From a virus, in the IMG/VR virus record IMGVR_UViG_3300043786_000796, positions 1-39,812 of that record: 39,812 nt of DNA; one strand, written 5' to 3'. The notes under the pieces were generated by a model. That model saw nothing but the letters and a program-made list of their open reading frames with translations. It was not told where the DNA came from and searched no databases. Position numbers and translations under genes: made by a program. Below, piece after piece: positions 5,366 to 20,149 of this stretch (position 1 is its first letter; each line of letters opens with the position of its first letter).

Positions 5366-5367
5366 TT

Positions 5368-5619: not shown

Positions 5620-5642
5620 GTGAAACGCCTCCTTGAGCGGAG

Positions 5643-5671
5643 ACTATAGGATTTGTCCCATTACATGTAAA
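5643..5671 (-). promoter_or_regulatory. Leftward early promoter (PL)
   Basis: Read on the minus strand: -35 TTTACA (5671-5666), a 17-base spacer, -10 TATAGT (5648-5643). Both hexamers are close to the sigma-70 consensus. One operator covers the spacer and -10 and another covers the upstream edge of the -35, as expected for a repressor-shut early promoter. Confidence 0.8.
5646..5661. promoter_or_regulatory. Repressor operator OL1 (ATAGGA-N4-TCCCAT)
   Basis: 16-bp imperfect palindrome ATAGGATTTGTCCCAT overlapping the -10 and spacer of PL. It shares its half-sites with the operators at 5671, 6374, 6396, 11159 and 20134. Confidence 0.8.
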
Positions 5672-5686
5672 TGGGAATCATCCCAT
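5671..5686. promoter_or_regulatory. Repressor operator OL2 (perfect ATGGGA-N4-TCCCAT)
   Basis: ATGGGAATCATCCCAT, with perfect six-base arms, centred 25 bp from OL1 and abutting the -35 of PL. Its centre contains GAATC, a GANTC site of the kind methylated by CcrM in alphaproteobacteria. Confidence 0.82.
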
Positions 5687-5703
5687 CAGCAGGACAAAAT
5701 TTT

Positions 5704-6339
5704 TTAGACGCGGCCGGCGCGCCAGACTACCCGGCCGGCAACGCTGATGTCGGAGAGCGGCACCTCGTATCGGGTGTGCAGTGAATTATCGCTGATCAGC
5801 ACTGCGACGGCCTTGCCTGGCACCTTCTCGACCCTCTTGATCACTGTCCCGTCGCCATCGAACAAGACGAAAATCCCGGGCTGCGAGATCTGAGTGTCAG
5901 ATAGGTTGACCAGGATCCGATCGCCGCTGGACAGCGTCGGCTCCATACTGTCGCCGCGGACTTCAATCATCGCCAGCTTGGTTTGGCCGAGCCGCAGTTC
6001 GCTCGAAAGGTAATCCTCGGGAAACGGCCAATTGGAAACCACGTTCTCATTGCTAACCACGGCGCCGCCGCCAGCTGACGCGTGGACGCCATATTCTGGC
6101 ACCGATCTATAGTGTGCAGGCACGGTTTCGGCCGTAATTGGCCCGCCGATTTCGCTTTCCGATAAGCCCAGCAAAGCTGCGACCTTTTTCCGGTCGCGCT
6201 CCTTTAACTCTACCGGAATGCCTCGATTAAAAAACTGGTGCATGTAGGCGTCGTTGCGCCCCATCGCTAGGGACAGGGCCTTCATATCCATGCCGCGCTC
6301 GGTGAGCGCCCTCAGGATCCGTTTACGCACAACATCCAT
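5704..6339 (-). CDS. LexA-like (S24 peptidase) phage repressor
   Basis: 211 residues. The N-terminal ~60 residues form a helix-turn-helix (MDMKALSLAMGRNDAYMHQFFNRG). The C-terminal half is an S24 self-cleaving domain: Ser131 in RGDSMEPTLSSGDRILV and Lys168 in TVIKRVE form the Ser-Lys dyad, and Ala89-Gly90 (HASAGGGAVV) is a likely self-cleavage site. Known family behaviour: RecA-stimulated cleavage after DNA damage lifts repression. It faces a small Cro-like gene across an 84-base region holding three operators, and flanks PL with two more. No ribosome site precedes ATG 6339; the predicted promoter places the transcript start at or next to the ATG, so the message may be leaderless, as lambda cI is from PRM. 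Confidence 0.93.
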   Translation of the reverse strand: MDVVRKRILRALTERGMDMKALSLAMGRNDAYMHQFFNRGIPVELKERDRKKVAALLGLSESEIGGPITAETVPAHYRSVPEYGVHASAGGGAVVSNENVVSNWPFPEDYLSSELRLGQTKLAMIEVRGDSMEPTLSSGDRILVNLSDTQISQPGIFVLFDGDGTVIKRVEKVPGKAVAVLISDNSLHTRYEVPLSDISVAGRVVWRAGRV

Positions 6340-6345
6340 GCAATT

Positions 6346-6373
6346 TTTCTAAAGCAAAAATAGGATTTGTAAA
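6346..6373 (-). promoter_or_regulatory. Repressor maintenance promoter (PRM-like)
   Basis: Minus strand -35 TTTACA (6373-6368), 16-base spacer, -10 TAGAAA (6351-6346). A start about seven bases on falls at ATG 6339, giving a leaderless repressor message. The weak outer operator 6360-6375 overlaps it. Confidence 0.5.
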
Positions 6374-6375
6374 AT
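6360..6375. promoter_or_regulatory. Weak operator copy OR3-like
   Basis: ATAGGATTTGTAAAAT keeps one good half-site (ATAGGA, same TTTG centre as OL1) but the other arm is degenerate. It overlaps the repressor promoter and shares two bases with the next operator. Confidence 0.5.
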
Positions 6376-6389
6376 CGGACATATCCCAT
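6374..6389. promoter_or_regulatory. Operator OR2-like (ATCGGA-N4-TCCCAT)
   Basis: ATCGGACATATCCCAT, one mismatch from a perfect palindrome of the family; it lies between the divergent promoters and touches the first base of the rightward -35 at 6389. Confidence 0.7.
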
Positions 6390-6417
6390 TGACCTATGGG
6401 ATTTCTCCCATTAGGTT
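6389..6417 (+). promoter_or_regulatory. Rightward early promoter (PR)
   Basis: -35 TTGACC (6389-6394), 17-base spacer, -10 TAGGTT (6412-6417). The spacer is almost exactly the perfect operator 6396-6411. Transcription would start near 6424, which is the ATG of the next gene, and no ribosome site is present, so the message may be leaderless. Confidence 0.65.
6396..6411. promoter_or_regulatory. Operator OR1-like (perfect ATGGGA-N4-TCCCAT)
   Basis: ATGGGATTTCTCCCAT with perfect six-base arms filling the spacer of the rightward promoter; binding here would block rightward early transcription. Confidence 0.82.
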
Positions 6418-6423
6418 AACCGT

Positions 6424-6624
6424 ATGAGTGAACTCCTAGCCTTTAAATCACAGGTCGAACAATACCTTCAGGCCAACGGCATGAGGCCGACCAGGTTTGG
6501 AAAGCTGTTCGCAAACGACCCTCAGTTCGTGTTCCAGCTGCGCGAAGGCCGCGAGCCGCGCTCGGCAACGCGACACAAGATCCTCGAGGCGATGTCGTCG
6601 TCTGCTGGCGCGGAGATTGGCTGA
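6424..6624 (+). CDS. Cro-like small helix-turn-helix protein
   Basis: 66 residues. MSELLAFKSQVEQYLQANGMRPTRFGKLFANDPQFVFQLREGREPRSATRHKI has the layout of a short HTH protein: a first helix, then PTRFGKLFANDPQFVFQLREG in the place of helices 2-3. Similar small proteins stand opposite the repressor in alphaproteobacterial prophages. By position it is the Cro or early-regulator counterpart of the repressor. The ATG coincides with the predicted transcript start and lacks a ribosome site. Confidence 0.75.
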   Translation: MSELLAFKSQVEQYLQANGMRPTRFGKLFANDPQFVFQLREGREPRSATRHKILEAMSSSAGAEIG

Positions 6625-6625
6625 C

Positions 6626-6859
6626 GTGACGGTCACAAGTCTCACCGGCCATCGGCCATACCGCAGTCGGCACACCGACGATCTGCACCGCGACCGAGCG
6701 TACTGGTGGTCGCGAGCCAACAACCGGATCCTCGGACCCGAGGACGAGCGTTTCGCCGCGATGCGGCTCCACGACTGCGAGCATGAACTTCGCTGCCGTG
6801 GCCAGTTTCAAGAGTTCCGCGCACCTCCTCCCGCGCGGACGCAAGGCCCGGCCGCCTAA
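6626..6859 (+). CDS. Small rightward early protein, unknown (77 aa)
   Basis: GTG start at 6626, one base after the Cro-like stop, with GGAG about ten bases upstream. The protein is rich in Arg, His and aromatic residues (GHRPYRSRHTDDLHRDRAYWWSRANNRILGP). No domain recognised. Longer readings start inside the previous gene and are less likely. Confidence 0.6.
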   Translation: MTVTSLTGHRPYRSRHTDDLHRDRAYWWSRANNRILGPEDERFAAMRLHDCEHELRCRGQFQEFRAPPPARTQGPAA

Positions 6860-6939
6860 TCCTCCCGAGCGGTCGGGCCAATTATTCTGGATGTCCTGGG
6901 GGGACCAAACCGAACACTTCAAACGCAGGGAGAGCGCAG

Positions 6940-7428
6940 ATGGGTGAGCCGTACTCGGAAGAGGAAGCGAAGGAAACCCAGAGACTCTGGCGCGAGGGCT
7001 ACAGCGCCTCGCAAATTGCCAGCATTCTAAAAAACGGACGAACACGCAACAGCGTCATTGGTTTCGTTCATCGCAATTTCGAATACCCTTCCCGCAAGAA
7101 GGCAAATGGACCGTCCATGATGAAGGCGGCACGCGAGCCGAAGCAATTCCGCAGGCCTGCAGCGGCCGCCACGAAGCGAGCGGAGCCGGCGCCTGTACCC
7201 AGCACTGCTGGGCTCCCGCCGCTTCTCCTGCCCCTCGAGGACGTCAAGCCGGGCCAGTGCGGATACGCGTGCAACGACGCGAGAAGCTGGCAGCAGCACC
7301 TGTTCTGCGGTCACCCCGTCGCCGGGGAATCCCCGTATTGCGCCGAGCATCACCGGATCTGCTACGTGCCGGCGGTCAAGAAGAGCATCCGCAAGCGCGC
7401 CGACATCCTCTTCCAGGCGGGGCTGTGA
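6940..7428 (+). CDS. GcrA-family cell-cycle regulator homologue
   Basis: 162 residues. The N-terminal helix-turn-helix reads SEEEAKETQRLWREGYSASQ, IASILKNGRTRNSVIGFVHR, which is the hallmark of GcrA; a variable linker follows, then a Cys/His-rich end (QCGYACND, FCGHPVAGESPYCAEHHRICYVP) as in GcrA proteins. Known biology: in Caulobacter GcrA works with sigma-70 RNA polymerase at promoters carrying CcrM-methylated GANTC. Here it is the first strong ribosome-site gene (GGGAG) of the rightward early operon. Inference: it may redirect host or phage promoters during infection. The stop is coupled to the next gene (TGATG). Confidence 0.88.
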   Translation: MGEPYSEEEAKETQRLWREGYSASQIASILKNGRTRNSVIGFVHRNFEYPSRKKANGPSMMKAAREPKQFRRPAAAATKRAEPAPVPSTAGLPPLLLPLEDVKPGQCGYACNDARSWQQHLFCGHPVAGESPYCAEHHRICYVPAVKKSIRKRADILFQAGL

Positions 7429-7847
7429 TGGGCAAGAACAAGCCGTGGTTCCCCTTTTATCCGTCCGACTGGCTGCACGGGACGTCCAGCCTGACGCTGG
7501 AGGAATGCGGGGCCTACATCCAGATCATTGCGGCGCTGTACGAGTGCGACAACGCGCTGGAATTGGAACGCATTGAACACCCCGTCACCGGCAAGCTTCA
7601 GGGCTATTCGTACAAGCGCCTTGCACGCCAATTGAACACCCGCGCCGACAAGATTGAGAGGCTCGTTGAGGGGCTTGTAAAGGCCCACAAGCTGAGCATC
7701 CAAGCGGGCTTTTTGACCAACAATCGAGTGGGTCAGGAACTCGCGAAACGCGAGATGATCTCGAGAAGAAATCGAGAAAATGTTTCGAAAAGGCGAGACA
7801 GGCAAGACCCGAAAGTGAGGTATTTCAACGACTTACGCAAGATGTGA
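7428..7847 (+). CDS. DUF1376-family protein, short form
   Basis: 139 residues. KPWFPFYPSDWLHGTSSLTL then EECGAYIQIIAALYECDNAL is the DUF1376 N-terminal domain, usually found in phage replication-organiser proteins (O-like or YdaU-like). Residues ~65-115 (YSYKRLARQLNTRADKIERLVEGLVKAHKL) suit the winged-helix part. Most relatives are longer; here the basic tail ends abruptly in KVRYFNDLRKM. The -1 frame stays open beyond this stop to 7918 with a Gln/Pro/His-rich tail, so the C-terminus may have been lost by a small frameshift. This is the only replication-type gene recognisable in the genome. Confidence 0.82.
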   Translation: MGKNKPWFPFYPSDWLHGTSSLTLEECGAYIQIIAALYECDNALELERIEHPVTGKLQGYSYKRLARQLNTRADKIERLVEGLVKAHKLSIQAGFLTNNRVGQELAKREMISRRNRENVSKRRDRQDPKVRYFNDLRKM

Positions 7848-7936
7848 GTTTACGACCGTACAACGACCGAAGCCTTAAACCACAGTCACAGCATTTTCCC
7901 ACGCATATTCATTCCTAGTGGAGATGTAGGAAAGCA

Positions 7937-8143
7937 ATGGTCAAATACGCTCACGAAGACCGCGCAGCCTTCGTCGCCCGTGTTGTGCGCGAGAAGGGCT
8001 TTGGAGGGAAGGCAAAACCTCCCGTCCGTTCCAAGATCCAGCCCCGGCCTGTCGAAGAGATCCTGGCCGATCAGATCGCACATCAGGACCGCCGCGCTCG
8101 CGGCCTGTTCGAATTTGGCCCCGCAGAAAAATGGAGCAAGTGA
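7937..8143 (+). CDS. Small early protein, unknown (68 aa)
   Basis: 68 residues, basic, with GFGGKAKPPVRSKIQPRPVEEILADQIAHQDRRARG. GTAGGAAAG precedes ATG 7937. No family recognised. The 89 bases before it (7848-7936) hold no other gene on the plus strand apart from the possible displaced tail of the DUF1376 gene. Stop and next start overlap as TGATG. Confidence 0.65.
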   Translation: MVKYAHEDRAAFVARVVREKGFGGKAKPPVRSKIQPRPVEEILADQIAHQDRRARGLFEFGPAEKWSK

Positions 8144-8472
8144 TGACTGAACCGCAGACCGAAGAAGTTAAGCCGGATGAAAAAAAGGCAAAGCCCAAAA
8201 AGGAAAAAGTGCCGCTGCGGTCTTTGCCGCCTGTTCCGCAGGGACATGAGATCTACCACGTAGGCTTCTTGGCGATTGACCGCGATTTGCGGCCCGACAT
8301 GTCAAAACGGCAGCGCCAGAGAGCTGTTGAATTGAGCCACACGGCTGACTGGTGGTGGGCTCTATCTCTTCAAAACAAAGCCACCATTTACCAGCGGCGG
8401 CTCGGCCCGTTTGTTTTTGAATACGTTGGCGCCCTCAACAAAAGCATCCGTGAGACAAGGGCGCAGCCATGA
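8143..8472 (+). CDS. Early protein with lysine-rich N-terminus, unknown
   Basis: 109 residues. The first ~28 are Lys/Glu/Pro-rich and probably disordered (EEVKPDEKKAKPKKEKVPLR); the rest looks folded, with HTADWWWALSLQNKATIYQR. ATG 8143 is chosen over an upstream in-frame ATG at 8131 because it overlaps the previous stop. No family recognised. Confidence 0.68.
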   Translation: MTEPQTEEVKPDEKKAKPKKEKVPLRSLPPVPQGHEIYHVGFLAIDRDLRPDMSKRQRQRAVELSHTADWWWALSLQNKATIYQRRLGPFVFEYVGALNKSIRETRAQP

Positions 8473-8573
8473 CCCAGATGCGCTTCATCGTCATTCTCTG
8501 CGCCGCGTGTGCGGCCGTGCTGACAGCTGGTGCATCTGCCGGCCTCTTCGCTTGGCTGATGTTTGCCGTCTGA
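8469..8573 (+). CDS. 34-aa membrane peptide
   Basis: ATG 8469 overlaps the preceding stop as ATGA. Residues 5-33 form one long hydrophobic stretch (FIVILCAACAAVLTAGASAG, LFAWLMFAV). It is below usual gene-length limits but its coupling and composition support a real single-span membrane peptide of unknown function. Confidence 0.55.
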   Translation: MTQMRFIVILCAACAAVLTAGASAGLFAWLMFAV

Positions 8574-8588
8574 ATTGGGAGATCACTG

Positions 8589-8948
8589 ATGCCAAAGCCA
8601 TCTGAGAAGACCTTGCGCCTTCAAGCAGACAAGGAAGCCATCCAGCAAATGCTCGACCAGGGCGCCAGTTTCCGCCAGATCGGGCTTAAATACGGCTGCA
8701 GCTACACGCTCGTCCAATACGTGATGAAGCCAGAAACGAAGAAGGAACGGCAGCGAAAAACCAACGAAAAGAAGAACCGGGACACGACCGGCGTGAAGCC
8801 GCGGTCCTACGGGAAGCCAGAGCCGAAGGTGATTGTCGAGGGAGAACCTGAGCCGCCAGACACGCGCGATCTGACCGGCCGGATGTTTGGAGATCCGCTG
8901 CCTGGTCGCAGCTACCTGGACAGGATGAGAGCCAAGCAGGGCGCATGA
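8589..8948 (+). CDS. Helix-turn-helix protein with disordered tail
   Basis: 119 residues. Residues ~8-50 (LRLQADKEAIQQMLDQGASF, RQIGLKYGCSYTLVQYVM) resemble a resolvase/homeodomain-type helix-turn-helix, followed by a Lys/Arg-rich and Pro-rich tail. Probably DNA-binding; target unknown. The stop overlaps the next ATG as ATGA. GGGAGATCACTG precedes the ATG. Confidence 0.68.
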   Translation: MPKPSEKTLRLQADKEAIQQMLDQGASFRQIGLKYGCSYTLVQYVMKPETKKERQRKTNEKKNRDTTGVKPRSYGKPEPKVIVEGEPEPPDTRDLTGRMFGDPLPGRSYLDRMRAKQGA

Positions 8949-9151
8949 TCAATCAGCGCCATTTCCTGAAGGCATGGCTGCGCGCCAATTGGAAGGGCAT
9001 GCCTGACGAGCAGGCCGAGATCATGCTGCAGGCCGCAAATGCAATCGAGTCGCTCGAGTTGGACGTTATCTGCCTCAGATTGGAACTTCGCCGATGCGCT
9101 GGTACGCGATCCGAACCAAACCAGGCGCAATGCGCCAATCCGACCGATTGA
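8945..9151 (+). CDS. Small early protein, unknown (68 aa)
   Basis: 68 residues; helical start MINQRHFLKAWLRANWKGMP then DEQAEIMLQAANAIESLELD. It overlaps the NusG-like gene by 58 bases, so translation of the two is probably linked. No family recognised. Confidence 0.6.
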   Translation: MINQRHFLKAWLRANWKGMPDEQAEIMLQAANAIESLELDVICLRLELRRCAGTRSEPNQAQCANPTD

Positions 9152-9633
9152 CCATGGTCGAGGCGGAACTGCGCCTGTACGAGGTCGAGCATTACCTTCC
9201 GATCGAGACGGTGGAGATTCGCCACCACCGGACGAAAAAGCTGATTGAGATGCGCAAGCCTCTTTGCCCTGGCTATTGCTTCGTGGCCAATGTGATCGAT
9301 TGGACGCTGTTTGACCGATTGCGCTGGGCGACAGGGCCAATACGCATAAACAATCAGCCTGCCAGAATCCCTTTGGGCGACATTGACCAGATCAAAGAGG
9401 CCGAGCGCCTCATTCAATTGGCCTCAAATGCCCGCCAATCGGACACGCAGATCGAGATTAAGCGCCGGTTCCCCGCCGGAACCCGTATTAAAATCACAGG
9501 CGAGCATCCATTGCGCGGCCAATCAGCCTACGTATTGGAAACCAAAGGCCGCAAAAGTCTCAAAGCTGTCCTCAGCAGCCTAAAGGCGCTTCAAATTGAG
9601 GTGCCAATTGCCAACGCCATAGTTGACAGTTAA
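9094..9633 (+). CDS. NusG/RfaH-like transcription antitermination factor
   Basis: 179 residues. The N-terminus MRWYAIRTKPG, then AELRLYEVEHYLPIETVEIR, KKLIEMRKPLCPGYCFV and WTLFDRL follow the NusG N-terminal (NGN) domain in order (residues ~1-105). Residues ~125-175 (RRFPAGTRIKITGEHPLRGQ, then ETKGRKSLKAVLSSLKALQIEVP) match a KOW-type C-terminal domain. Known role: NGN domains clamp RNA polymerase and reduce pausing and termination. It is the last gene of the rightward early operon, upstream of terminase and all late genes, the place of lambda Q; I infer it is the late-gene antiterminator. No N- or Q-like gene is otherwise visible. Confidence 0.85.
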   Translation: MRWYAIRTKPGAMRQSDRLTMVEAELRLYEVEHYLPIETVEIRHHRTKKLIEMRKPLCPGYCFVANVIDWTLFDRLRWATGPIRINNQPARIPLGDIDQIKEAERLIQLASNARQSDTQIEIKRRFPAGTRIKITGEHPLRGQSAYVLETKGRKSLKAVLSSLKALQIEVPIANAIVDS

Positions 9634-9845
9634 GTTCGCGCCAATTGATTAGCGTTCGCGGCCTGTTCCGCAGGGGTCAATTGATCGTCCTGGGGGCTGC
9701 ACCAAGCTGGCGATTGCCGGCAATGGCCGCGCAATGGACTTCCAGAAAAAGCAGGCGGGATGTTTCAGACTGCGTCGACCGGCGCGCGGGACAAGGCCCC
9801 CATCGCCCGCGCAGAGCGGCGCGCCCCCCGCCTGCCCTGCACATG
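9634..9845. other. 212-base non-coding region between convergent operons
   Basis: No credible gene is seen. It separates the stop of the NusG-like gene from the end of the leftward accessory operon. It holds CAATTGAT twice (9642-9649 and 9678-9685, 36 bp apart), a 12-bp perfect palindrome ATTGCCGGCAAT (9713-9724), and a GC-rich stretch at ~9780-9830 where GCGCGGG can pair with CCCGCGC. There is no T-run. It may hold a weak bidirectional terminator or a recruitment site for the antiterminator made immediately upstream; neither can be shown by eye. Confidence 0.5.
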
Positions 9846-10037
9846 CTAAGGGCGCGAAATTCGGGCAAGTCCGGTGCTTTCAATCCCGATCAGGGCGAGC
9901 CGCAGATACGGCGGGATGGGGTGCTTCCGGTTCTCCCAGGAGGAGACTGTCTTCCTGGTGACGCCCAGGAGCGCCGCAAGGGCCTCACTGCTGAGGCCCC
10001 TGTCTGTCCGCCACTTGACGAGTTCGAGCGGGGTCAT
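9846..10037 (-). CDS. XRE-type helix-turn-helix regulator
   Basis: 63 residues: MTPLELVKWRTDRGLSSEAL, AALLGVTRKTVSSWENRKHP, then IPPYLRLALIGIESTGLARI. This is a complete XRE/Cro fold with Q-like position filled by E18-A19 and the typical SSWENRK recognition end. It is the last gene of a leftward accessory operon; ATG 10037 overlaps the previous stop as ATGA. It is a candidate for binding the 19-bp palindrome (11132-11150) at the head of its own operon. Confidence 0.82.
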   Translation of the reverse strand: MTPLELVKWRTDRGLSSEALAALLGVTRKTVSSWENRKHPIPPYLRLALIGIESTGLARISRP

Positions 10038-10231
10038 GCGCGGAGCCTCCTGTTGAAGTTTCTCGCCAGCAGCGCAACCCGGAGTTCTTCGTCAGTCTTG
10101 CCGAAAATGTCGGCGGCAAGGGCGCAGGCGACTGTTGCTGAAGGGTCTTCACTCCTTCCAATGAAGCAGGTTAGATCCTCGTTATCGAGAAGCCAGTCGA
10201 GCGTTTCGCGGTATCCCATACGCTTTGCCAT
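10034..10231 (-). CDS. Accessory protein, unknown (65 aa)
   Basis: 65 residues from ATG 10231, which stands seven bases after GGGAG; an ATG six bases earlier (10237) overlaps the previous stop but is too close to that ribosome site. MAKRMGYRETLDWLLDNEDL then acidic/helical to the basic end ARNFNRRLRA. No family recognised. Coupled to the XRE gene. Confidence 0.62.
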   Translation of the reverse strand: MAKRMGYRETLDWLLDNEDLTCFIGRSEDPSATVACALAADIFGKTDEELRVALLARNFNRRLRA

Positions 10232-10233
10232 CT

Positions 10234-10524
10234 TCATTCTCCCTTGTGTTGGCGCGCCTTCCGGCGCCGTTCCCAATCGGCCTGAATGAACGAAGGCACC
10301 CAGTCGTCCTCGCCGGTTTCCCGAATTGGCACTGGCGCCGCTTCGATCGGCGCGATGCCTTGGTGGACGATGTAGGACAGCGTGTTGAGGGCCAGCGCCA
10401 GTTCATCCCGGTCGTTGATGACCATTTTGCAGACTTCGCTTGCCTTCCGGCCTTCCTCTCTGGCGTGACGCTCCGCATCCGCCTTCATGGGGAAGAACCG
10501 AGTTCCAGACTGATAGACGATCAT
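10234..10524 (-). CDS. Accessory protein, unknown (96 aa)
   Basis: 96 residues: MIVYQSGTRFFPMKADAERH at the start resembles a small alpha-beta domain, then INDRDELALALNTLSYIVHQ and a basic C-terminus (DWERRRKARQHKGE). GGAGG lies eight bases before ATG 10524. No family recognised. Part of the leftward accessory operon. Confidence 0.68.
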   Translation of the reverse strand: MIVYQSGTRFFPMKADAERHAREEGRKASEVCKMVINDRDELALALNTLSYIVHQGIAPIEAAPVPIRETGEDDWVPSFIQADWERRRKARQHKGE

Positions 10525-10586
10525 TTCGCAATTCCTCCGTGGCGATGGATCCAGCGGTTGATCGAAAAAGTAATAACCGACCTCAC
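10521..10586 (-). CDS. Possible 21-aa leader peptide
   Basis: GTG 10586 has a strong AGGAG seven bases upstream and the frame ends in a TGA that overlaps the next gene's ATG (ATGA). The predicted peptide is MRSVITFSINRWIHRHGGIAK. Good ribosome site plus exact coupling argue for translation; the length leaves it doubtful as a functional protein, and it could serve to couple ribosomes to the 96-aa gene. Confidence 0.4.
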   Translation of the reverse strand: MRSVITFSINRWIHRHGGIAK

Positions 10587-10605
10587 GCCTACTCTCCTGT
10601 GTGGT

Positions 10606-10623
10606 GGGGGCATTCGCGCCCCC
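10606..10623. terminator. GC-rich hairpin between accessory genes
   Basis: GGGGGC (10606-10611), loop ATTCGC, GCCCCC (10618-10623). It lies 20 bases beyond the stop of the leftward 152-aa gene and before the rest of that operon. There is no T-run on either strand, so it may attenuate or stabilise mRNA ends more than terminate. Confidence 0.45.
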
Positions 10624-10642
10624 GGTGGGTTTCAGAGGTCGA

Positions 10643-11101
10643 TCACTTCGCCTTGACGGTCAGTTCAAGGATCTCGACGCGGTTGTCGGGCTGTTTGCAC
10701 TTGGCGGCTGACTTCATCGCCAGGTCGCGGCGGCCGCAGAAGCCGACCAGGAAGAACTCCTCATATTTGCCCTCGGCCTTGCGCTTCTCGACCAGGGCGA
10801 TGCGCTCGTTCCTCCTGGTTTCGGCGTACTGCTCTGCGGTGCCATGGGCCGCAACAATCTCGCGGGTGCGCTCTGACTTGTCCCAGCTGCGCGGCTCTTC
10901 GCCTGCATCCCACTTTGCGACAAGCTCCTGGTAGAATTTGAAGTTGCTGATGTCGGTCCTGCGCCAGCCCGAGTTCATCGCGTTATGTTGCGCGACCTGG
11001 TAGCTTTCGGTGCAGACGACTGCGTGGGTGTAGGTGCGGTCAGACTTCCTGGTGAAGACCGATCCGTCAGATGCTGTCGCGGTGTATGTGAACTGTGCCA
11101 T
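10643..11101 (-). CDS. First gene of leftward accessory operon, unknown (152 aa)
   Basis: 152 residues from ATG 11101, with GGGAGAA about ten bases upstream; a longer frame to 11143 would run into the regulatory palindrome. The first ~60 residues look beta-rich (MAQFTYTATASDGSVFTRKS, TYTHAVVCTESYQVAQ), followed by a charged helical part (SERTREIVAAHGTAEQYAET, RNERIALVEKRKAEGKYEEF) and FLVGFCGRRDLAMKSAAKC. No family recognised. It stands behind a promoter with one operator of the phage repressor type and a separate 19-bp palindrome, so its expression is probably tied to the lysogeny state. Confidence 0.75.
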   Translation of the reverse strand: MAQFTYTATASDGSVFTRKSDRTYTHAVVCTESYQVAQHNAMNSGWRRTDISNFKFYQELVAKWDAGEEPRSWDKSERTREIVAAHGTAEQYAETRRNERIALVEKRKAEGKYEEFFLVGFCGRRDLAMKSAAKCKQPDNRVEILELTVKAK

Positions 11102-11130
11102 GCCCGTGTTCTCCCGTTGTTGGTGATCAA

Positions 11131-11159
11131 TATGTAACGACACGTTACATGATAGTCAA
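11131..11159 (-). promoter_or_regulatory. Promoter of leftward accessory operon
   Basis: Minus strand -35 TTGACT (11159-11154), 17-base spacer, -10 TACATA (11136-11131), start predicted near 11124, about 23 bases before the ATG. The repressor-type operator 11159-11174 is centred near -42, the position from which lambda cI activates PRM, so activation as well as repression is possible. Confidence 0.55.
11132..11150. promoter_or_regulatory. 19-bp palindromic operator of a second regulator
   Basis: ATGTAACG-ACA-CGTTACAT has perfect eight-base arms. It differs from the repressor operators and covers the -10 and spacer of the accessory promoter. The operon's own XRE protein is the nearest candidate ligand. 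Confidence 0.7.
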
Positions 11160-11174
11160 TAGGAAAAATCCTAT
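11159..11174. promoter_or_regulatory. Repressor-type operator (perfect ATAGGA-N4-TCCTAT)
   Basis: ATAGGAAAAATCCTAT, perfect six-base arms of the immunity-region type, 4.7 kb from the repressor gene. It lies between the leftward accessory operon and the rightward terminase genes. Confidence 0.78.
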
Positions 11175-11210
11175 CAGAACTGCCGCAGCCTCTCAGAAAG
11201 GCAAACAGCC

Positions 11211-11699
11211 ATGGCCAAAAAGAAACTGGGCGCCCCGCCCAAATACGACCAGACCACCAGAGACGAGATCTGCGCAGCCCTCGCCGAAGGCCGCAGCCTG
11301 CGCTCAATCTGCAGGCAGGAGGGGATGCCCTCGATCGTCCTGGTATTGCGATGGTTGAGGGAAGAACCGGCTTTTGTGACGCAGTACGTGCATGCGCGCG
11401 AGGCCCAGGCCGACGCCCTTGCCGAGGAGATCCTCGAGATCGCCGACAACGCGTCGAACGACTGGATGGAGCGCGAGGATCCCGAGAACCCGGGGTTCAG
11501 CCTCAACGGCGAACACATCCAGCGCTCCAAGCTGCGTGTCGACGCCCGCAAGTGGTGGGCGTCCAAGGTGGCGCCGAAGAAATACGGCGACAAGGTCGAG
11601 CAAACGCTCAAGGGCGAGGTTGCGGTTCGCAACGTCCGCATAGCCGTCGAGGCGGCTCAGTGGGCGCCACGAAGCCCCGACGATGCTTCGGGACGATGA
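11211..11699 (+). CDS. terS: Terminase small subunit
   Basis: 162 residues. The N-terminal part has a helix-turn-helix (IC AALAEGRSLRSICRQEGMPS) for binding the packaging site, and the middle carries YVHAREAQADALAEEILEIA, RSKLRVDARKWWASKVAPKK and YGDK, the pattern of Sf6 gp1-like small terminases. It forms the ring that recognises phage DNA and delivers it to the large subunit. It overlaps the large subunit gene by 17 bases. Sf6-type small subunits are usually associated with headful packaging, which fits the circular map. Confidence 0.92.
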   Translation: MAKKKLGAPPKYDQTTRDEICAALAEGRSLRSICRQEGMPSIVLVLRWLREEPAFVTQYVHAREAQADALAEEILEIADNASNDWMEREDPENPGFSLNGEHIQRSKLRVDARKWWASKVAPKKYGDKVEQTLKGEVAVRNVRIAVEAAQWAPRSPDDASGR

Positions 11700-13071: not shown

Positions 13072-15431
13072 GCGCTGTTGACGATCTCGAATCCGACGCG
13101 GACGGCGCTGCCGATCAGAAGCGTCAGGAGCCCGACAAGAGCCTGAAGGAGGGCTCTCTGTGGGATTCGTACCTGCACGACTATGAAAAGGCCTTCAACG
13201 GCTGGAACGAGAAGATCGACCGCATCGAGAAGCTGTACGCCGATGAGGCGATGCTGAAGCGGGACAACAACGAAAGCGAGATGAAGGTCTTCTGGGCCAA
13301 TATGGAGGTGCTGAACCCTTCGGTGTTCTCGCGCCAGCCGGTGCCGGTGGTCGCGGCCAAGTTCAAGAGCCGCAAGCCCATCGTCCAGAAGGCATCCGAA
13401 GTCCTTGAGCGCTGCCTGGCGTCGTCCTTCGAAGCTGACGACATCCAGGGCACCATGAAGCTGGTGCGTAACGACTTCACACTTTCCGCTCGCGGCGTGC
13501 CGTGGGTGCGGATGGAAGTCGAGGGCGACTACGAGTGTGTGAAGATCGAACACCTCTCCCGGCGCGACTTCGCGCACGGGCCAGCCCGCAAGTGGAAAGA
13601 GGTACCCTGGGCTGCGCGCCGCGCCTTCCTGACAAAGAAGGAAATGCGCGAGCGCTTTGAACAGTTCAGCGGGAGCCTGTACCTTGAGGCCCAGTACACG
13701 ACGAAGGGCACGGGCGAAAAAGAGGACGAAGATAAGTCCGTCGAGAAGAAGGCGGTCGTCTGGGAGTTCTGGCACAAGGTGCTGGGCGTCGTCTGCTGGC
13801 ACTCGCCGGGGCTGAAGCAGGTTCTCGACATCACAAACGAGCCGCCGCTCAACCTGAAGGGCTTCTTCCCGTGCCCCAGGCCCGCCTACGGCACGCTGGT
13901 GCCTGGCACGCTGAAGCCGATCCCAGACATGGCCTACTATGCGGACCAGCTGGAGGAGATCAACAGCCTGACGAACAGGATCTCGGCGCTGTCCGAGATC
14001 GTGAAGCTGCGCGGCTTCTATTCCGCCGGCAACGACGAACTGAAGACGGCGATCGAGAGCGCAATCGCGCGCACGGATCCCAATGCCGTCCTGATCCCGA
14101 TCTCCAACGTCGGCCACCTGGGTGGCGGGCTTGCCGAGGCGCTGGTCTGGATGCCTCTCGATCAGATCATCAACGCCCTGCAGGCGCTCGTCCTGATGCG
14201 AAAGCAGCTGATCGAGGACGTCTATCAGATCACCGGCCTGTCGGACATCATGCGCGGCGCCACGGATCCGAACGAGACGCTCGGCGCGCAGCAGCTGAAG
14301 ACCCAGTACGGGTCGATCCGCGTCCGCGAAAAGCAGGAGGAACTGGTTCGCGTGGCTCGCGACCTGGCTCGCATCACTGGCGAGATCATCAGCGAGCAGT
14401 TCAGCATTCAGACCATCAAGGCCATGGCGCAGTACGACGAGGCGCCCCTGCAGGCCGAGATCGAGCAGCAGCTGGGCCAGATCCGCGAGCAGGTAGCGAA
14501 GCTGCAGACCGATCCGCAGATGATGCAGGCCGCGCAGGCGAACCCGCAGCAGGCGCAGCAGATCATGGGCCAGGTCAATCAGGCCGTGCAGAAGCTGCAG
14601 TCGACCATCACGCTCGACGCCATCGTGCAGCTGCTGAAAGACGAGAACATCCGGCCGTTCGTCCTCGACATCGAGACGGATTCGACCATCATGCCCGACG
14701 AGAACGCCGCCAAGCAGCGCGCGACCGAGTTCCTCGGGGCTCTCGGCACCGCACTGGCGCAGCTGATCCCGATGGTTCAAGGCCAGCCCGAGAGCGCTGA
14801 GTTTGCCGGTGAGGTGATCAAGTTCGCCGTGTCGCCGTTCCGCGCCGGCCGCAGCCTCGACCAGGCAATCGATGACTTCGTTGAGAAAATGAAGCAGACG
14901 GCCGCGCAGCCACGTCCGAACCCGGAGCAGGAGAAACTCCAGGCCGAAATGAAGACCAAGGAAGCCGAGGCCGCCGCCAAGGCGCAGGAGCGCGAGCAGC
15001 AGGCAAAATTGGCCGAGCAGAAGCACAACCAGGAAATGCAGAAGACAAAGGCCGCGCACGACGCCGCAATGGCTAAAATCGAAGCGGAAATGGCTCGAGA
15101 CGCCCAGCGCCACAACCTCGAAATGGAGCGCCTCACCATAGAGCGTGATGCCGCCAAGGAATCTGCGGACATCCAGCGCGACCAGGCGATCGAGAAGCAC
15201 AGCCGAGAGGTCGAGTTGTTCGACCGTCGAGAAGGCGAGCGCCTCAGCGAACGCGAAACAAGATCTGCTGAGCCGGCCGAAAGCCCAAAGGCTGAGCGGT
15301 CAGAAACGTCTGAAAAAATGCTCGAGATGGTTATGCAGAACCAGGCCGCGATTGCGCAGGCAGTCGGCTCGCTCGGCCGCTCCCGAAAGATCATCAAGGA
15401 CCGCAACGGCGACATATTGGGGATTGAATAA
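13068..15431 (+). CDS. P22-type portal protein
   Basis: 787 residues, start ATG 13068 coupled to terminase. Residues ~20-550 follow podovirus portals of the P22/BPP-1 type: WANMEVLNPSVFSRQPVPVV, PVVAAKFKSRKPIVQKASEV, FTLSARGVPWVRMEVEGDYE, LEEINSLTNRISALSEIV and MRKQLIEDVYQITGLSDIMRG then NETLGAQQLKTQYGS. Residues ~620-725 form a very long, highly charged coiled coil (QEREQQAKLAEQKHNQEMQK, ERLTIERDAAKESADIQRDQ), like the P22 portal barrel. A dodecamer would form the DNA entry pore. Immediately downstream is an unusual block of structural genes before the scaffold. Confidence 0.9.
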   Translation: MSAVDDLESDADGAADQKRQEPDKSLKEGSLWDSYLHDYEKAFNGWNEKIDRIEKLYADEAMLKRDNNESEMKVFWANMEVLNPSVFSRQPVPVVAAKFKSRKPIVQKASEVLERCLASSFEADDIQGTMKLVRNDFTLSARGVPWVRMEVEGDYECVKIEHLSRRDFAHGPARKWKEVPWAARRAFLTKKEMRERFEQFSGSLYLEAQYTTKGTGEKEDEDKSVEKKAVVWEFWHKVLGVVCWHSPGLKQVLDITNEPPLNLKGFFPCPRPAYGTLVPGTLKPIPDMAYYADQLEEINSLTNRISALSEIVKLRGFYSAGNDELKTAIESAIARTDPNAVLIPISNVGHLGGGLAEALVWMPLDQIINALQALVLMRKQLIEDVYQITGLSDIMRGATDPNETLGAQQLKTQYGSIRVREKQEELVRVARDLARITGEIISEQFSIQTIKAMAQYDEAPLQAEIEQQLGQIREQVAKLQTDPQMMQAAQANPQQAQQIMGQVNQAVQKLQSTITLDAIVQLLKDENIRPFVLDIETDSTIMPDENAAKQRATEFLGALGTALAQLIPMVQGQPESAEFAGEVIKFAVSPFRAGRSLDQAIDDFVEKMKQTAAQPRPNPEQEKLQAEMKTKEAEAAAKAQEREQQAKLAEQKHNQEMQKTKAAHDAAMAKIEAEMARDAQRHNLEMERLTIERDAAKESADIQRDQAIEKHSREVELFDRREGERLSERETRSAEPAESPKAERSETSEKMLEMVMQNQAAIAQAVGSLGRSRKIIKDRNGDILGIE

Positions 15432-15865
15432 TGCCAAAAAGCACGATTACCTGCAACCGCATCCTGGCGCTGATCTTCAACGCTACGGCATGGGCAGACA
15501 TTGCGGAGAACGACACTTCCGCGCCGCTGACCAACCTGTACCTGTCGCTGCACACCGCCGATCCGGGTGTGGGCAACAGCCAGTTGACCAACGAGACGTC
15601 CTACACGAACTATGCCCGCCTCGCGGTTGCCCGCACAACGTCGGGATGGGATGTCCCGGCATCTGGCCTGACACAGAACGCGGCATTGGCCCAGTTTGCC
15701 CAATGCGGCGTCACCGGAGCGACCATCACGCACGTCGCGGTCGGCACGGCATCGTCTGGCGCTGGAACCGTGCTTTATGCTGGCGCGCTCGATGCTTCCC
15801 TGGCCGTGGCCAACGGCATCCAGCCACAGTTTGCAGCAGGCGCCCTGAATGTGACGGAGACTTGA
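15431..15865 (+). CDS. Tail-fibre-like or decoration structural protein
   Basis: 144 residues. The pattern NRILALIFNATAWADIAEND, PLTNLYLSLHTADPG, TNYARLAVARTTSGWDVP and THVAVGTASSGAGTVLYAGA is that of a small phage structural family often labelled tail fibre or capsid-exterior protein; the exact place in the virion is not established. The ATG shares its A with the portal stop (TAATG), so it belongs to the late operon. Confidence 0.75.
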   Translation: MPKSTITCNRILALIFNATAWADIAENDTSAPLTNLYLSLHTADPGVGNSQLTNETSYTNYARLAVARTTSGWDVPASGLTQNAALAQFAQCGVTGATITHVAVGTASSGAGTVLYAGALDASLAVANGIQPQFAAGALNVTET

Positions 15866-15867
15866 TC

Positions 15868-16017
15868 GTGAAATACACCTGCAAGGAATGCGGCAAGGTG
15901 GTCAGCGTCGAGAACGGCAACATCAAGCGCGATTGCGCTTGTGACAACGGTATCATCGCGCACATGACCGCCACCGTTCGCGGCGAATCCAAGATGGCAT
16001 CCGGAGCCCGCAGGTAG
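15868..16017 (+). CDS. Small zinc-ribbon-like protein (49 aa)
   Basis: GTG start at 15868 with GGAG nine bases upstream; stop TAG overlaps the GTG of the next gene by one base. Cysteines are arranged YTCKECGKVV and RDCACDN, a C-x2-C ... C-x-C pattern suited to one zinc ion. Similar mini zinc ribbons sit between structural genes in other phages; function unknown. Confidence 0.65.
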   Translation: MKYTCKECGKVVSVENGNIKRDCACDNGIIAHMTATVRGESKMASGARR

Positions 16018-16922
16018 TGGCTGGCTTCAGGAACCTCAAGGAATACGTCGAGGCCGAAGACAACGGCCAGTATCACGTCGCGTTATTCCGCAAGGCGAAC
16101 CCTGGGACCACCGTAAACCAGAGCAAATGGTTGGATTTGATTTATTCGGGCGGCTCGCCAACGGCGCACTTCTACGCATCCTCGCCTCTTGAAGCGGCGC
16201 TGATCCCGCGGGCCCGCGGCTTCGATGTCCCGAATGTGGCGCCAGCCCGGCAAGTCCTGAGAAACATCAAAATTCAAAGTTTGTCCCGGTCGTCTACGCA
16301 AAACTCGAACGACCGCAACCAGATGATCCTTTGTGACTATCTGCTCTACTATCCATTCATCGACATGGACGCGACCGGCGATCCGCAAACGCTGATAAAC
16401 GACGTGGCCTTGCCGGAACGATACCCGGAAGGCGGGCAAGTCGTCGCTGTCGGCCAGTCGGCCAACCCTGGGGGCGGCGCCTTCACGTTCACCTACACCA
16501 ATCAGGATGGAACGTCGGGGCGGGTTGCGCCCACTCAATTGATCACGGCGGTCAACGGCGGCGGCCAGGTTGTCGGCGGTTCGATCACGAACTCGAACAA
16601 CGGACTTCCGTTCTGCATGTTGCAAGGCAACGATACCGGCGTCCGCTCGATTGAGGATGTCACCTTCACAGTCGCAGGCGGCGGGCTGATGGCCTTCGCA
16701 ATCGTCAAGCCATTGCTGACCTTTTACCTGACGCAGGTAGGCCGGCGCGACAACACGCTGAACATAAGCTTCGGCGCGTGTGACGAATTTGCGGGCCTGA
16801 TCAACATCCCGCGCCTGCCTATCATCAAGGACGATGCGGTGCTTTCCATCCTCGGCTGCGGCCACAACGGAACGGCTGACGGAATGATCCTCACCGGCAT
16901 CATCGAAACAGCTTGGAATTAG
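16017..16922 (+). CDS. Structural protein, unknown (301 aa)
   Basis: 301 residues from GTG 16017 (TAGTG overlap with the stop before). Rich in beta-type, Gly/Asn/Thr stretches (AFTFTYTNQDGTSGRVAPTQ, TNSNNGLPFCMLQGNDTGVR), as in virion surface proteins, with FRNLKEYVEAEDNGQYHVAL at the start. No enzyme motif. It forms a pair with the next gene; the two and the 144-aa protein look like a module of virion proteins. Assignment as structural rests on composition and place in the head operon. Confidence 0.7.
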   Translation: MAGFRNLKEYVEAEDNGQYHVALFRKANPGTTVNQSKWLDLIYSGGSPTAHFYASSPLEAALIPRARGFDVPNVAPARQVLRNIKIQSLSRSSTQNSNDRNQMILCDYLLYYPFIDMDATGDPQTLINDVALPERYPEGGQVVAVGQSANPGGGAFTFTYTNQDGTSGRVAPTQLITAVNGGGQVVGGSITNSNNGLPFCMLQGNDTGVRSIEDVTFTVAGGGLMAFAIVKPLLTFYLTQVGRRDNTLNISFGACDEFAGLINIPRLPIIKDDAVLSILGCGHNGTADGMILTGIIETAWN

Positions 16923-16931
16923 GATAAAGAA

Positions 16932-17816
16932 ATGGGCTGGACTTCGCACGACGACCTGATCAACCAGATCACAGTCAACGAAAAGGCTGGACAGACGTTC
17001 TATAACAAGACGCTGGCTTCTGCCGGCACGGCAGGCCATTGGACGCTGCTGTCTGGTCACGGCGGCTTCCCTGCTGCTGCTACGTTTGCCGGCGCCGATC
17101 TGACCTATGTGGCGACCGACGACACTTGGGGCGAAGGCGCGCCTTACCACGGCGGCAACGTGTCGGCCGCGACCAAGCACTTCCTCGGGGCTGGCGCGGC
17201 TATTGTCGCTGCTGCGGGTGCGCCTTGGTATCTGATGGCGATTGACCTGGTCGGCTATGTGCCGCTCTCGGGCACGAACGTCTCCACCATTGGCACAAAG
17301 ACCGTCACCATGACGGCGCTCGGCGGCGGCGCTCGATACCCGAACGGCCAGGGGCTGCGCCTGTTTGTGGCGGCTGACACCGCACTGGGCGCAAACGCTC
17401 CGACCTGCATCGTCAACTATCTGGACACCGGAGGCGGCGCTGGCGCCACAACCACGTTCACCTCGACCGCCTCACTTGGCATCGGGCAGCTGCTCAACTC
17501 GGGAACGGCGGCGAACAAGTGGAACCCATTCCTGCCGCTCGCGGTCGGGGATACGGGCGTCTCTGACATTGTCGACCTGGTCTGGGCTGGCACGGCGCAC
17601 GCATCCGGCACCGTCATCATCGGCCTCTGCAAGCCATTGTGGACGATCCCGGTCCCGGCCACCGGCCTCTACACGAAGATGGACTTCCTGAACGCATACC
17701 CAAGCCTGCCGCGCATCAGGGACGGCGCGAACATCCAGTTCCTGCTGTACCAAACAGCCGGCACGACTTCGGCTGGCACGATCATGGTCGACTTCGATTG
17801 GGCCTACGGAGGCTGA
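16932..17816 (+). CDS. Structural protein, unknown (294 aa)
   Basis: 294 residues, Gly/Ala/Thr-rich, beta-type throughout (GTKTVTMTALGGGARYPNGQ, GAGATTTFTSTASLGIGQLL), ending TSAGTIMVDFDWAYGG. No domain recognised. Start ATG 16932 is ten bases after the previous stop with AGGATAAAGAA in front. Part of the late operon; probably a virion surface or decoration component. Confidence 0.7.
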   Translation: MGWTSHDDLINQITVNEKAGQTFYNKTLASAGTAGHWTLLSGHGGFPAAATFAGADLTYVATDDTWGEGAPYHGGNVSAATKHFLGAGAAIVAAAGAPWYLMAIDLVGYVPLSGTNVSTIGTKTVTMTALGGGARYPNGQGLRLFVAADTALGANAPTCIVNYLDTGGGAGATTTFTSTASLGIGQLLNSGTAANKWNPFLPLAVGDTGVSDIVDLVWAGTAHASGTVIIGLCKPLWTIPVPATGLYTKMDFLNAYPSLPRIRDGANIQFLLYQTAGTTSAGTIMVDFDWAYGG

Positions 17817-17817
17817 T

Positions 17818-17970
17818 ATGGATAAGTCCATCCTCGACATCATCAACGATTTCGCGGCGTGGCGCGGCAACTTGTTCACCTTGGCGGCGCTGATAATCGA
17901 CCGGCATTCGGCCATGATCCGAGAGAAGCTGATAGCCGCCGGCCACGCGGAAGCTGCGGAACTGTTCTGA
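17818..17970 (+). CDS. Small helical protein between structural genes (50 aa)
   Basis: ATG 17818 lies one base after the previous stop, with GGAGG just upstream, and the stop TGA shares a base with the next ATG (17970). MDKSILDIINDFAAWRGNLF then TLAALIIDRHSAMIREKLIA is amphipathic helix, not a clear membrane span. Function unknown. Confidence 0.6.
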   Translation: MDKSILDIINDFAAWRGNLFTLAALIIDRHSAMIREKLIAAGHAEAAELF

Positions 17971-18770
17971 TGGCGCTGTTCGGCAACGGCAACAATTACG
18001 GGAACCCCTGCATACGGGTGTTTGGCGCCGGGGTCGTGGCGCTTACGACATATCCGTCAGCGCTGGTGTCGAATTTCGATCAGGGCGGGTTCAGGCGAAA
18101 CAGCTATTGGGGCACCGGCATCAACTCAAACTACGCTTCGATCCCTTCCGGCAAGTACAATTCCTATGCCTGGATGATGCCGGCAAAGGCCGGGGCCATT
18201 GCCAGTCACCGGACAATCATCGGGGAAGGCGACCTGACTGCGGCCATTACAGGAGGCAGGAATGGCGCTGCCACCTTGGCGGGATCTGGATCGCTGACGG
18301 CAATCGGGCAGCTTGTCGTCTCACTGGCCGCCACCCTGGCGGGCTCGGGCGACATCACCGCGGCGGATCTGCGCGCCTTCCTGAATGCGTCGGCAACCCT
18401 GTCCGGTTCTGGCGACATCACGGCAGCGCTTCTCGGGGCAAAGGCAGACATTTCGGCAAACCTTTCGGGCGCCGGCGGGATTGATGCGGTTGCAACGGCT
18501 CTCGGGACGATGGCCGCGACCATCACGTCATCCGGCGACCTGCTGACCACATCGAACGTTGGCAATGCGGTCCTCGATGCGCTCAACGGTGTCGAGGACG
18601 ACTGGACGCTGCGCCAGGCGCTGCGGATCATTCTTTCGGCACTCGGCGGCAAGGTAGACATTACCGGAAACACGGTCACGATCCGTGACGTGAACGACAC
18701 GGTGGACCGCATCACGGCCACAACTGACACCAACGGGCAGCGCACGGCGGTCACACTGGACGCAGACTGA
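17970..18770 (+). CDS. Structural protein with GSGDITA repeats
   Basis: 266 residues from ATG 17970. Residues ~85-200 hold about five copies of a ~25-residue unit built around A-x-L-(A/S)-G-S-G-(D/S)-(I/L)-T-A (AATLAGSGSLTAI, AATLAGSGDITAA, ATLSGSGDITAA, ANLSGAGGIDAV, ATITSSGDLLT). The C-terminal ~70 residues (LDALNGVEDDWTLRQALRII, LSALGGKVDI, TIRDVNDTVDRITATTD) form a domain found at the end of several phage virion proteins. Likely an elongated beta-rich virion fibre or decoration subunit. The next gene carries one more repeat copy. Confidence 0.72.
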   Translation: MALFGNGNNYGNPCIRVFGAGVVALTTYPSALVSNFDQGGFRRNSYWGTGINSNYASIPSGKYNSYAWMMPAKAGAIASHRTIIGEGDLTAAITGGRNGAATLAGSGSLTAIGQLVVSLAATLAGSGDITAADLRAFLNASATLSGSGDITAALLGAKADISANLSGAGGIDAVATALGTMAATITSSGDLLTTSNVGNAVLDALNGVEDDWTLRQALRIILSALGGKVDITGNTVTIRDVNDTVDRITATTDTNGQRTAVTLDAD

Positions 18771-19300
18771 TGGCTGATTTCTGGGCCGACAAATACTGGA
18801 ACGGCAGATATTTCAACACCCGCTATTTCGGTGCGGGCGAGGAAGTAGCCGGCGCAATGTCAGCCAGCCTGTCCGGTTCGGGCGGGCTTTCGGCGGCTCT
18901 GACATTTGTCGATAACAGTGTCGTTATCGATATGGCCATCGACGCAGATGGCGTCCGAGCGATTAGGCGTAAGGCCAAGCGCCAGGCGGCCAAAAACGAA
19001 AAACGCTGGAAGCGAGAGAGGCACGAACACCGGCTCGCCGTTGAGGCGGCTTGGGCAAAGGTCTTCGGAGAACCGCAGACAGCTGAAGCCCCGCAACCGA
19101 CTGTCGAGCAGACCCAGCAGGTCGTCTCGATCGCCGCCGCCGAGATCGACTTGCTCGGCATTGCTGATGCTACCGATCGGCTCCTCGAGATGGTCGAGGC
19201 CTACGCCGAGGAATTGAGGCTTGAGGCCGAACTGAGGCTTGAAGCCGAACGCAGGAAACGAAACAGGGACGCAATGATCGTATTGCTGATGGCAGCATGA
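18770..19300 (+). CDS. Structural protein with one repeat copy and charged coiled coil
   Basis: 176 residues. The N-terminus MADFWADKYWNGRYFNTRYF is aromatic-rich, then SASLSGSGGLSAALTF repeats the motif of the protein before it. From ~65 on the chain is charged and helical (RRKAKRQAAKNEKRWKRERH, then LEMVEAYAEELRLEAELRLE), suggesting a coiled coil. No family recognised; it probably assembles with the product of 17970-18770. ATG is joined to the previous stop (TGATG). Confidence 0.68.
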   Translation: MADFWADKYWNGRYFNTRYFGAGEEVAGAMSASLSGSGGLSAALTFVDNSVVIDMAIDADGVRAIRRKAKRQAAKNEKRWKRERHEHRLAVEAAWAKVFGEPQTAEAPQPTVEQTQQVVSIAAAEIDLLGIADATDRLLEMVEAYAEELRLEAELRLEAERRKRNRDAMIVLLMAA

Positions 19301-19632
19301 GAGAGCGCTACTGCAAGGTCTGCACCGGCTGGCACAAGCTGGACGCGTGGCCCCACAACTGCATGCCCGAGCCGAACTGGAACCGCAGCGAACTGGCCGG
19401 CCCGATGCTCATCCGCGACGGCATGGAGCCCGTCCAGAGCCAGCTTGACGGCAAGATGTACGACAGCAAGCGCGCCCTGCGTGCCACCTACAAGGCGGCG
19501 GGCGTGACAGAGATCGGCAACGACACCAGGATCCTAGATCCGAAACCGAAGCCGAAGCCACAGGCAGACGAGGCCGGGATTACCGCCTCGATCGAGAAAG
19601 CAATGAGCCGCGCCGGCCTGGGCGCGCCTTAG
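19297..19632 (+). CDS. Zinc-knuckle-like protein of the head operon
   Basis: 111 residues. MRERYCKVCTGWHKLDAWPH-NC has Cys6, Cys9, His13/His20 and Cys22, a possible zinc site. LIRDGMEPVQSQLDGKMYDS, KRALRATYKAAGVTEIGND recurs in podovirus head operons next to portal or scaffold genes. Function unknown. It overlaps the previous gene as ATGA, and its stop overlaps the end of a leftward gene by four bases, marking the insertion edge of that gene. Confidence 0.68.
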   Translation: MRERYCKVCTGWHKLDAWPHNCMPEPNWNRSELAGPMLIRDGMEPVQSQLDGKMYDSKRALRATYKAAGVTEIGNDTRILDPKPKPKPQADEAGITASIEKAMSRAGLGAP

Positions 19633-20111
19633 AGGCCAGCCTTGTCAAATGCCGCGTTAAGCACTTCATCGATGCTTGGTTTGGGGAGCGTCTCCCTGTC
19701 CAAAAAGTCTTGGATTGCCCTGTTCCGGGCCTTTGATGGTTTGTCGAAATCAATTTTACGCTGCTTCTGAACGCGTTTCAGCAGTCGCTTGAGAATAGCC
19801 TCCATCTCGTCCATCTCGCTGTCTTTATACATTTCGTCTATATATTCGTTGAGCATTTTGACGAGATTTACATCGTAATCGAATGTATCGTCGTATTCTC
19901 CAAGTATGTTAATGCACATTTGCAAGTTTTTGCGTCGACTAAATTTGTATATCAAGACTGAAAAGTCTTGTTTTATTTGGTCAATCACAATTTGTGCGCC
20001 CATTTTCTGGGCTTCGTTGATCGCGGCTTCTACTCCTTTGATCTCGTCGGCGTCTGCCCACAGCCAGTCGCCATAGAACGGGTTCTTCGCGGCGTTGAGT
20101 TTCGGTTTCAT
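19629..20111 (-). CDS. AT-rich moron in the head operon, unknown (160 aa)
   Basis: 160 residues from ATG 20111, with AGGAG eight bases upstream (an earlier in-frame start at 20162 would lie beyond the operator). It is visibly richer in A/T than its neighbours and reads against the late operon, between the zinc-knuckle gene and the scaffold gene. The sequence is charged and helical: NAAKNPFYGDWLWADADEIK, EAINEAQ-type helices, YDDTFDYDVNLVKMLNEYID, EMDEMEAILKRLLKRVQKQR. No transmembrane segment or signal peptide and no family recognised. A perfect repressor-type operator lies 23-38 bases upstream of the ATG, so its transcription is probably governed by the phage repressor. Host-conversion or superinfection roles are possible but not shown. 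Confidence 0.78.
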   Translation of the reverse strand: MKPKLNAAKNPFYGDWLWADADEIKGVEAAINEAQKMGAQIVIDQIKQDFSVLIYKFSRRKNLQMCINILGEYDDTFDYDVNLVKMLNEYIDEMYKDSEMDEMEAILKRLLKRVQKQRKIDFDKPSKARNRAIQDFLDRETLPKPSIDEVLNAAFDKAGL

Positions 20112-20133
20112 GCCTTCGCTCCTTTTCAGTTGA

Positions 20134-20149
20134 ATAGGACGAATCCTAT
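20134..20149. promoter_or_regulatory. Repressor-type operator before the head-operon moron (perfect)
   Basis: ATAGGACGAATCCTAT, perfect six-base arms, in the 70-base gap between the leftward moron and the rightward scaffold gene. TATTCA (minus strand, 20136-20131) at its edge could be the -10 of the moron promoter. The centre contains GAATC, a GANTC site. Confidence 0.78.

Follow-up and report, generated by a model that had tools for sequence, protein, structure and literature searches.

The window analysed here is the whole of IMG/VR virus record IMGVR_UViG_3300043786_000796, a stretch of 39,812 bases from a temperate phage, and the system in question is its lysogeny switch together with two predicted operators of the same type that lie far from it, beside accessory genes. 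A direct repeat of 127 base pairs (bp) occupies both ends (1-127 and 39686-39812), and the record is therefore probably a complete, circularly closing genome. An integrase is encoded at 1277-2338, the packaging and head genes run rightward, about 6% of the sequence is intergenic in an approximate gene list, and relatives of the TerL protein in cellular genomes include several Rhizobiales records. The switch comprises a phage repressor with an S24 domain and an N-terminal DNA-binding region, flanked by two divergent early promoters with repeated operators (labels such as L188 or G047 denote other contigs):

5643-5671, minus strand: predicted promoter P_L, TTTACA-N17-TATAGT, matching the consensus at 10 of 12 positions
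5646-5661: operator O_L1, ATAGGATTTGTCCCAT, overlapping the spacer and -10 of the leftward P_L
5671-5686: operator O_L2, ATGGGAATCATCCCAT, abutting the -35 of P_L
5704-6339, minus strand: S24-type repressor of 211 amino acids (aa), with a helix-turn-helix (HTH)-like N-terminus, a HASAGGG cleavage motif and GDSMEPT and IKRVEK catalytic motifs, all read from the sequence
6374-6389: operator O_R2, ATCGGACATATCCCAT, whose last T is the first T of the P_R -35 TTGACC
6389-6417, plus strand: predicted promoter P_R, TTGACC-N17-TAGGTT, with a geometry common to the switches of L188, L189, L203 and L210
6396-6411: operator O_R1, ATGGGATTTCTCCCAT, within the P_R spacer
6424-6624, plus strand: Cro-like gene, 66 aa

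The S24 domain scores 48.6 bits with PF00717 (cut-off 23.3) and repressor residues 6-206 match phrog_4 (transcriptional repressor). The Cro-like protein shares 41% identity over 44 aa with an open reading frame (ORF) at the same position in the L210 switch and probably binds the same operators as the repressor.

The initial annotation had described a 16-bp palindrome, ATRGGA-N4-TCCYAT, with at least four good copies around the repressor gene and perfect copies at 11159 and 20134. This description holds: the exact motif occurs at 5646, 5671, 6396, 11159 and 20134, and 6374 has one mismatch. The two distant copies, about 5 and 14 kb from the switch, are both intergenic, each lying between two divergently oriented genes, on the 5' side of the leftward one:

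9846-10037, minus strand: terminal gene of cargo unit 1, an HTH_3/XRE protein of 63 aa
10034-10276, minus strand: small ORF of cargo unit 1, no family
10234-10524, minus strand: small ORF of cargo unit 1, no family
10643-11101, minus strand: first gene of cargo unit 1, 152 aa, phrog_32956
11131-11159, minus strand: proposed leftward promoter, TTGACT-N17-TACATA, its -35 overlapped by the operator by one base
11132-11150: a second, different perfect palindrome of 19 bp, ATGTAACG-ACA-CGTTACAT, in the spacer of that promoter
11159-11174: outlying operator 1, ATAGGAAAAATCCTAT, identical in L012 and L013
9886-11184: cassette including this operator, missing as a block in L093, L014 and L015
19629-20111, minus strand: cargo unit 2, a 160-aa protein of no known family
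20134-20149: outlying operator 2, ATAGGACGAATCCTAT, unchanged in L092 and L093 and ending 22 bp upstream of the leftward start codon

Two weight matrices were used to scan the genome. With a matrix made from its four switch sites, 11159 (20.5 bits) and 20134 (18.6 bits) score directly below the switch sites, the next match reaches 13.0 bits and none of 100 dinucleotide shuffles attains 18.6. With a class matrix made from 47 unique switch operators of 18 other phages, and including no site of this genome, 11159 ranks first and 20134 fifth. Shuffling was the control by which the initial annotation proposed to judge the sites, and with either matrix 0 of 100 shuffles reach 11159 or 20134. Six palindromes, four at the switch and two distant, are clearly separated from all other matches in the genome; the next best score at chance level, which bears out the earlier remark that nothing comparable occurs inside the ordinary late genes. 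The site ranked seventh with the class matrix, at 35183, was rejected: 32 of 100 shuffles reach its score, and it coincides in part with what is probably the ribosome-binding site of the 35197 gene. When all palindromes were clustered blindly, GC-rich palindromes in coding sequence drowned the signal; clustering limited to tandem pairs recovered the switches of this genome, L007 and L020.

That the outlying matches arose by chance is hardly credible. A reversed control pattern has three matches in 862 kb from other phages of the same operator class, so that one stray match in a genome would be unremarkable. However, the shuffles fall short of both scores, both sites lie in the small intergenic fraction 5' of leftward genes, and both are present in relatives; in this genome the reversed pattern has no match. 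The switch motif is found at promoter regions beyond the switch, above chance expectation.

The partial copies that the initial annotation had placed at 32839 and 32858 fared differently. The class matrix puts them in 1804th and 108th place and the genome's own matrix in 649th and 146th; they were rejected as operators, each being a single ATAGGA half without a correctly spaced partner. The earlier proposal that distant copies stand 5' of leftward accessory units, under control of the repressor, is thus well supported at 11159 and 20134 and fails at this third locus. At 32315-32813, two overlapping small leftward genes lie between late genes, one beginning with a signal-peptide-like MKLVFALAFATLATVAAADA; no operator accompanies them.

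At 11159, the one-base overlap of operator and TTGAC reproduces the geometry of P_R, which is also that of the L188, L189, L203 and L210 switches with their shared TCCYATTGAC join. Read leftward, the site is ATAGGATTTTTCCTATTGACT, the same as the L188 switch through TTGAC; the L188 switch carries an identical ATAGGATTTTTCCTATTGAC, and its repressor has a homologous HTH region (38% over 60 aa). An alternative core, CTGATA-N17-TATCAT, would likewise lie beneath the operator. Because geometry and sequence are both shared with switches of the class, the 11159 promoter looks like a third early promoter.

Searching IMG/VR for paired sites yielded 24 further contigs. Many of them have a pair of operator clusters separated by about 1 kb and show the 22-bp spacing seen in the O_R pair described here, and repressor similarity is detectable in several. 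The contigs L188-L211 comprise more than 20 phage contigs of the same operator class, in several of which the -35 TTGAC shares one base with the operator, and offer a ready set for studying repressor specificity. In a survey of the exact core, TRGGA-N4-TCCYA, across 20 other phages of the class (the 862 kb mentioned above), matches were almost confined to switch clusters: one stray match (G047) is inside a gene, and distant clusters in G053 and G043 resemble the other cluster of a switch, within immunity regions of 4-5 kb. Hence, outlying promoter-type operators are a feature of this lineage and not general in the class. An apparent outlying site in L020 (17811) lies inside a gene and was discarded, and L007 and L010, scanned with the motifs of their own switches, showed no strong outlying site, although weak matches were not checked singly.

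Relatives of the phage serve as natural experiments. L093, L014 and L015 are approximately 93-95% identical to the genome over long aligned stretches, and from all three the 9886-11184 cassette is absent, operator included. About 40 bp from the 3' end of the cassette HTH gene persist there, which suggests that the cassette was lost. The 11159 unit, with its own predicted promoter and its block-wise presence or absence, fits the 'moron' of the initial annotation in this respect; the expression in lysogens that the term implies is probably the wrong expectation, given the position of the operator.

At 20134, a 70-bp stretch containing the operator shows a single difference in L092 and L093, at a position outside the operator. 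The flanking late gene differs by only about 1-4% in the same comparison, so the constancy of the operator is not significant by itself. The telling point is the constant operator region set against the gene behind it, whose L093 homologue at the same place is only 30% identical in protein. The 19629-20111 gene (L093 8093-8467) is leftward and fast-diverging, the late genes on either side being about 95% identical, and its protein had no match in 50,697 phage records. Elsewhere in L093 (about 331-1130), an insertion replaces genome positions 9650-9740, and its frame, judged by eye, resembles an HNH/AP2 homing endonuclease.

The outlying sites might instead be roadblocks that halt stray transcription of the late region in the lysogen, in line with the stoperator analogy of the initial annotation. 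Both sites lie in gaps between divergent genes, and 20134 has no clear promoter core, as such a role would allow. Yet there are just two sites, both symmetric, at least one of them is promoter-associated with the geometry of a switch promoter, and the 11159 site vanishes with its cassette instead of staying to guard the late genes. We consider this explanation very unlikely, and the analogy is not supported.

A third comparison concerns the repressor itself. Where L013 (1-2390) aligns with genome positions 4313-6700, the repressor C-terminus and the flanks are nearly unchanged, whereas divergence affects one block made up of the repressor N-terminus, the Cro-like gene and the switch operators, the last of which have shifted toward TAGGA-N4-TCCTA with forms such as GTAGGATATGTCCTAC. 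The two phages are probably a natural heteroimmune pair. The 11159 cassette of L013 is 100% identical, and its ATAGGA-N4-TCCTAT suits both operator types.

Cargo unit 1 has an anatomy like that of acr-aca loci, with a small terminal HTH gene and an inverted repeat in the promoter, and ATGTAACG-ACA-CGTTACAT is perhaps the operator of this HTH protein. Searches of Pfam, PHROGs, NCBIfam and PADLOC, with no dedicated Aca library, gave no Aca or Acr family match for the unit, and tblastn found no match of the HTH protein in phages. Phages of Serratia, Pseudomonas and Caulobacter encode homologues of the phrog_32956 protein, and in one of the Serratia phages the gene is next to primase/helicase. The predicted structures of the two cargo proteins were too poor to use (pLDDT 38 and 42).

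The presence of an HTH protein in the 11159 cassette raises the prospect that the outlying palindromes serve this or another regulator, for instance one supplied by the host, and that their likeness to the switch operators is convergent; both arms of both outlying sites do read ATAGGA, unlike those of most switch sites. This, too, is highly improbable: L093 and L014 lack almost all of the cassette HTH gene (in the stretch compared) and keep an unchanged 20134 site, a different palindrome in the cassette promoter would suit the cassette's own protein, and in L188 the 16-mer found at 11159 serves as a switch operator.

The reading that we favor is that the S24 repressor binds the two outlying operators as well as the four at P_L and P_R, and that the leftward cargo units stand under lytic-type promoters that the repressor would close in lysogens and that would become active upon infection or SOS induction. 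As a whole, including binding, repression rather than activation, SOS induction and the role of the cargo, we give it a probability of about 0.74. It draws on the identity of the motifs, the switch-type geometry at 11159, the coupled absence of cassette and operator, and the operator at 20134 that is constant in front of a diverged gene. Since the operators cover or abut the promoter region, the cargo units should be off in lysogens, where the repressor would occlude the outlying promoters and keep the cargo silent. When the phage infects a cell lacking immunity, or once the repressor has been destroyed by RecA-stimulated cleavage, these promoters would fire together with P_L and P_R, and cargo of an early type would be expressed from inside the late region.

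Several observations weigh against this reading. The search for a promoter core at 20134 gave no convincing candidate, so the direction of control there rests on position. Each distant locus has one operator and not a pair, and scans of other phages, each with the motif of its own switch, turned up no promoter-type site away from the switch. Arm position 3 is A on both sides of both outlying sites, compared with G in six of the eight switch arms, and affinity may therefore be lower. Single operators and the A at this position together suggest that the repressor binds the outlying sites more weakly than O_R, and one may speculate that the cargo opens before the full switch does. Finally, an operator centered near -42 could in principle activate transcription, the effect that lambda CI has at P_RM when bound to O_R2.

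This last point is the basis for the opposite reading, in which the repressor activates the outlying promoters from a class II position and the units are true lysogeny-expressed morons. With TTGACT as the -35, the center of the 11159 operator falls near -42, like lambda O_R2 relative to P_RM. However, P_R and other switches of the class have the same geometry, and their promoters are necessarily shut in lysogens, the alternative core at 11159 sits under the operator, and the 20134 site is only 22 bp from the start codon, too close for an activator site upstream of a promoter. Activation is consequently unlikely, and we retain repression in lysogens as the preferred reading.

A more specific extension of repression is that the late region contains a repressor-gated dock for exchangeable, early-acting counter-defence cargo; placed under lytic-type promoters, the cargo would stay silent in the lysogen and be expressed at once by an incoming or induced phage. 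The idea comes from the acr-aca-like anatomy of the 11159 cassette and the fast diversification of the 20134 gene, and on this account the symmetric ATAGGA arms would fit both heteroimmune repressor types of the lineage. We regard it as doubtful.

If repression holds, accessory cargo of the late region can be tied to the immunity switch from sequence alone, with a predicted timing of expression at infection and induction and not in lysogeny. Deriving operators from a switch and scanning for outlying copies provides a way to find such cargo elsewhere. It also calls for caution, given that an orientation antisense to the late genes does not by itself imply a lysogeny-expressed moron.

Among known systems, the closest likeness of the switch is to the lambda-type CI/Cro switch, with a divergent repressor and Cro-like gene, paired operators at P_L and P_R, one operator overlapping the -35 and a second in the spacer, and an S24 domain with cleavage motifs. 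What sets it apart is the pair of additional predicted operators on accessory units, at distances of about 5 and 14 kb; to our knowledge, lambda itself has no operators in its late region. Immunity repressors that act at promoters away from the main switch are represented by the C1 operators of phage P1, CI of coliphage 186 at pB and the conserved inverted repeats of phiC31. Those outlying sites control lytic functions of the phage itself, whereas the predicted targets here are exchangeable accessory cassettes. In SPbeta, the master repressor MrpR, which is related to tyrosine recombinases, binds the 15-bp SPBRE at about ten promoters (PMC10516654). The predicted arrangement shares with it a single master repressor and an element repeated in several intergenic promoter regions, but has a CI-like S24 repressor and two outlying palindromes. 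Cluster A mycobacteriophages likewise have repressor sites beyond the switch, but their stoperators are asymmetric 13-bp sites, up to 30 per genome and mostly in one orientation (PMC6550527), that are mostly not associated with promoters and block elongation (PMC6550527, PMC9283540), in contrast to the two symmetric, perfectly palindromic sites in promoter regions described here. The cargo units resemble prophage morons in being accessory genes antisense to the late genes with their own promoter; morons, however, are often highly expressed in lysogens (PMC7067206), and the cargo is predicted to be silent there. A repressor that controls several promoters of one prophage is thus a known kind of system, and what appears to be new is a small dispersed-operator regulon built on a CI/Cro switch, with cassettes of the late region as its predicted targets.

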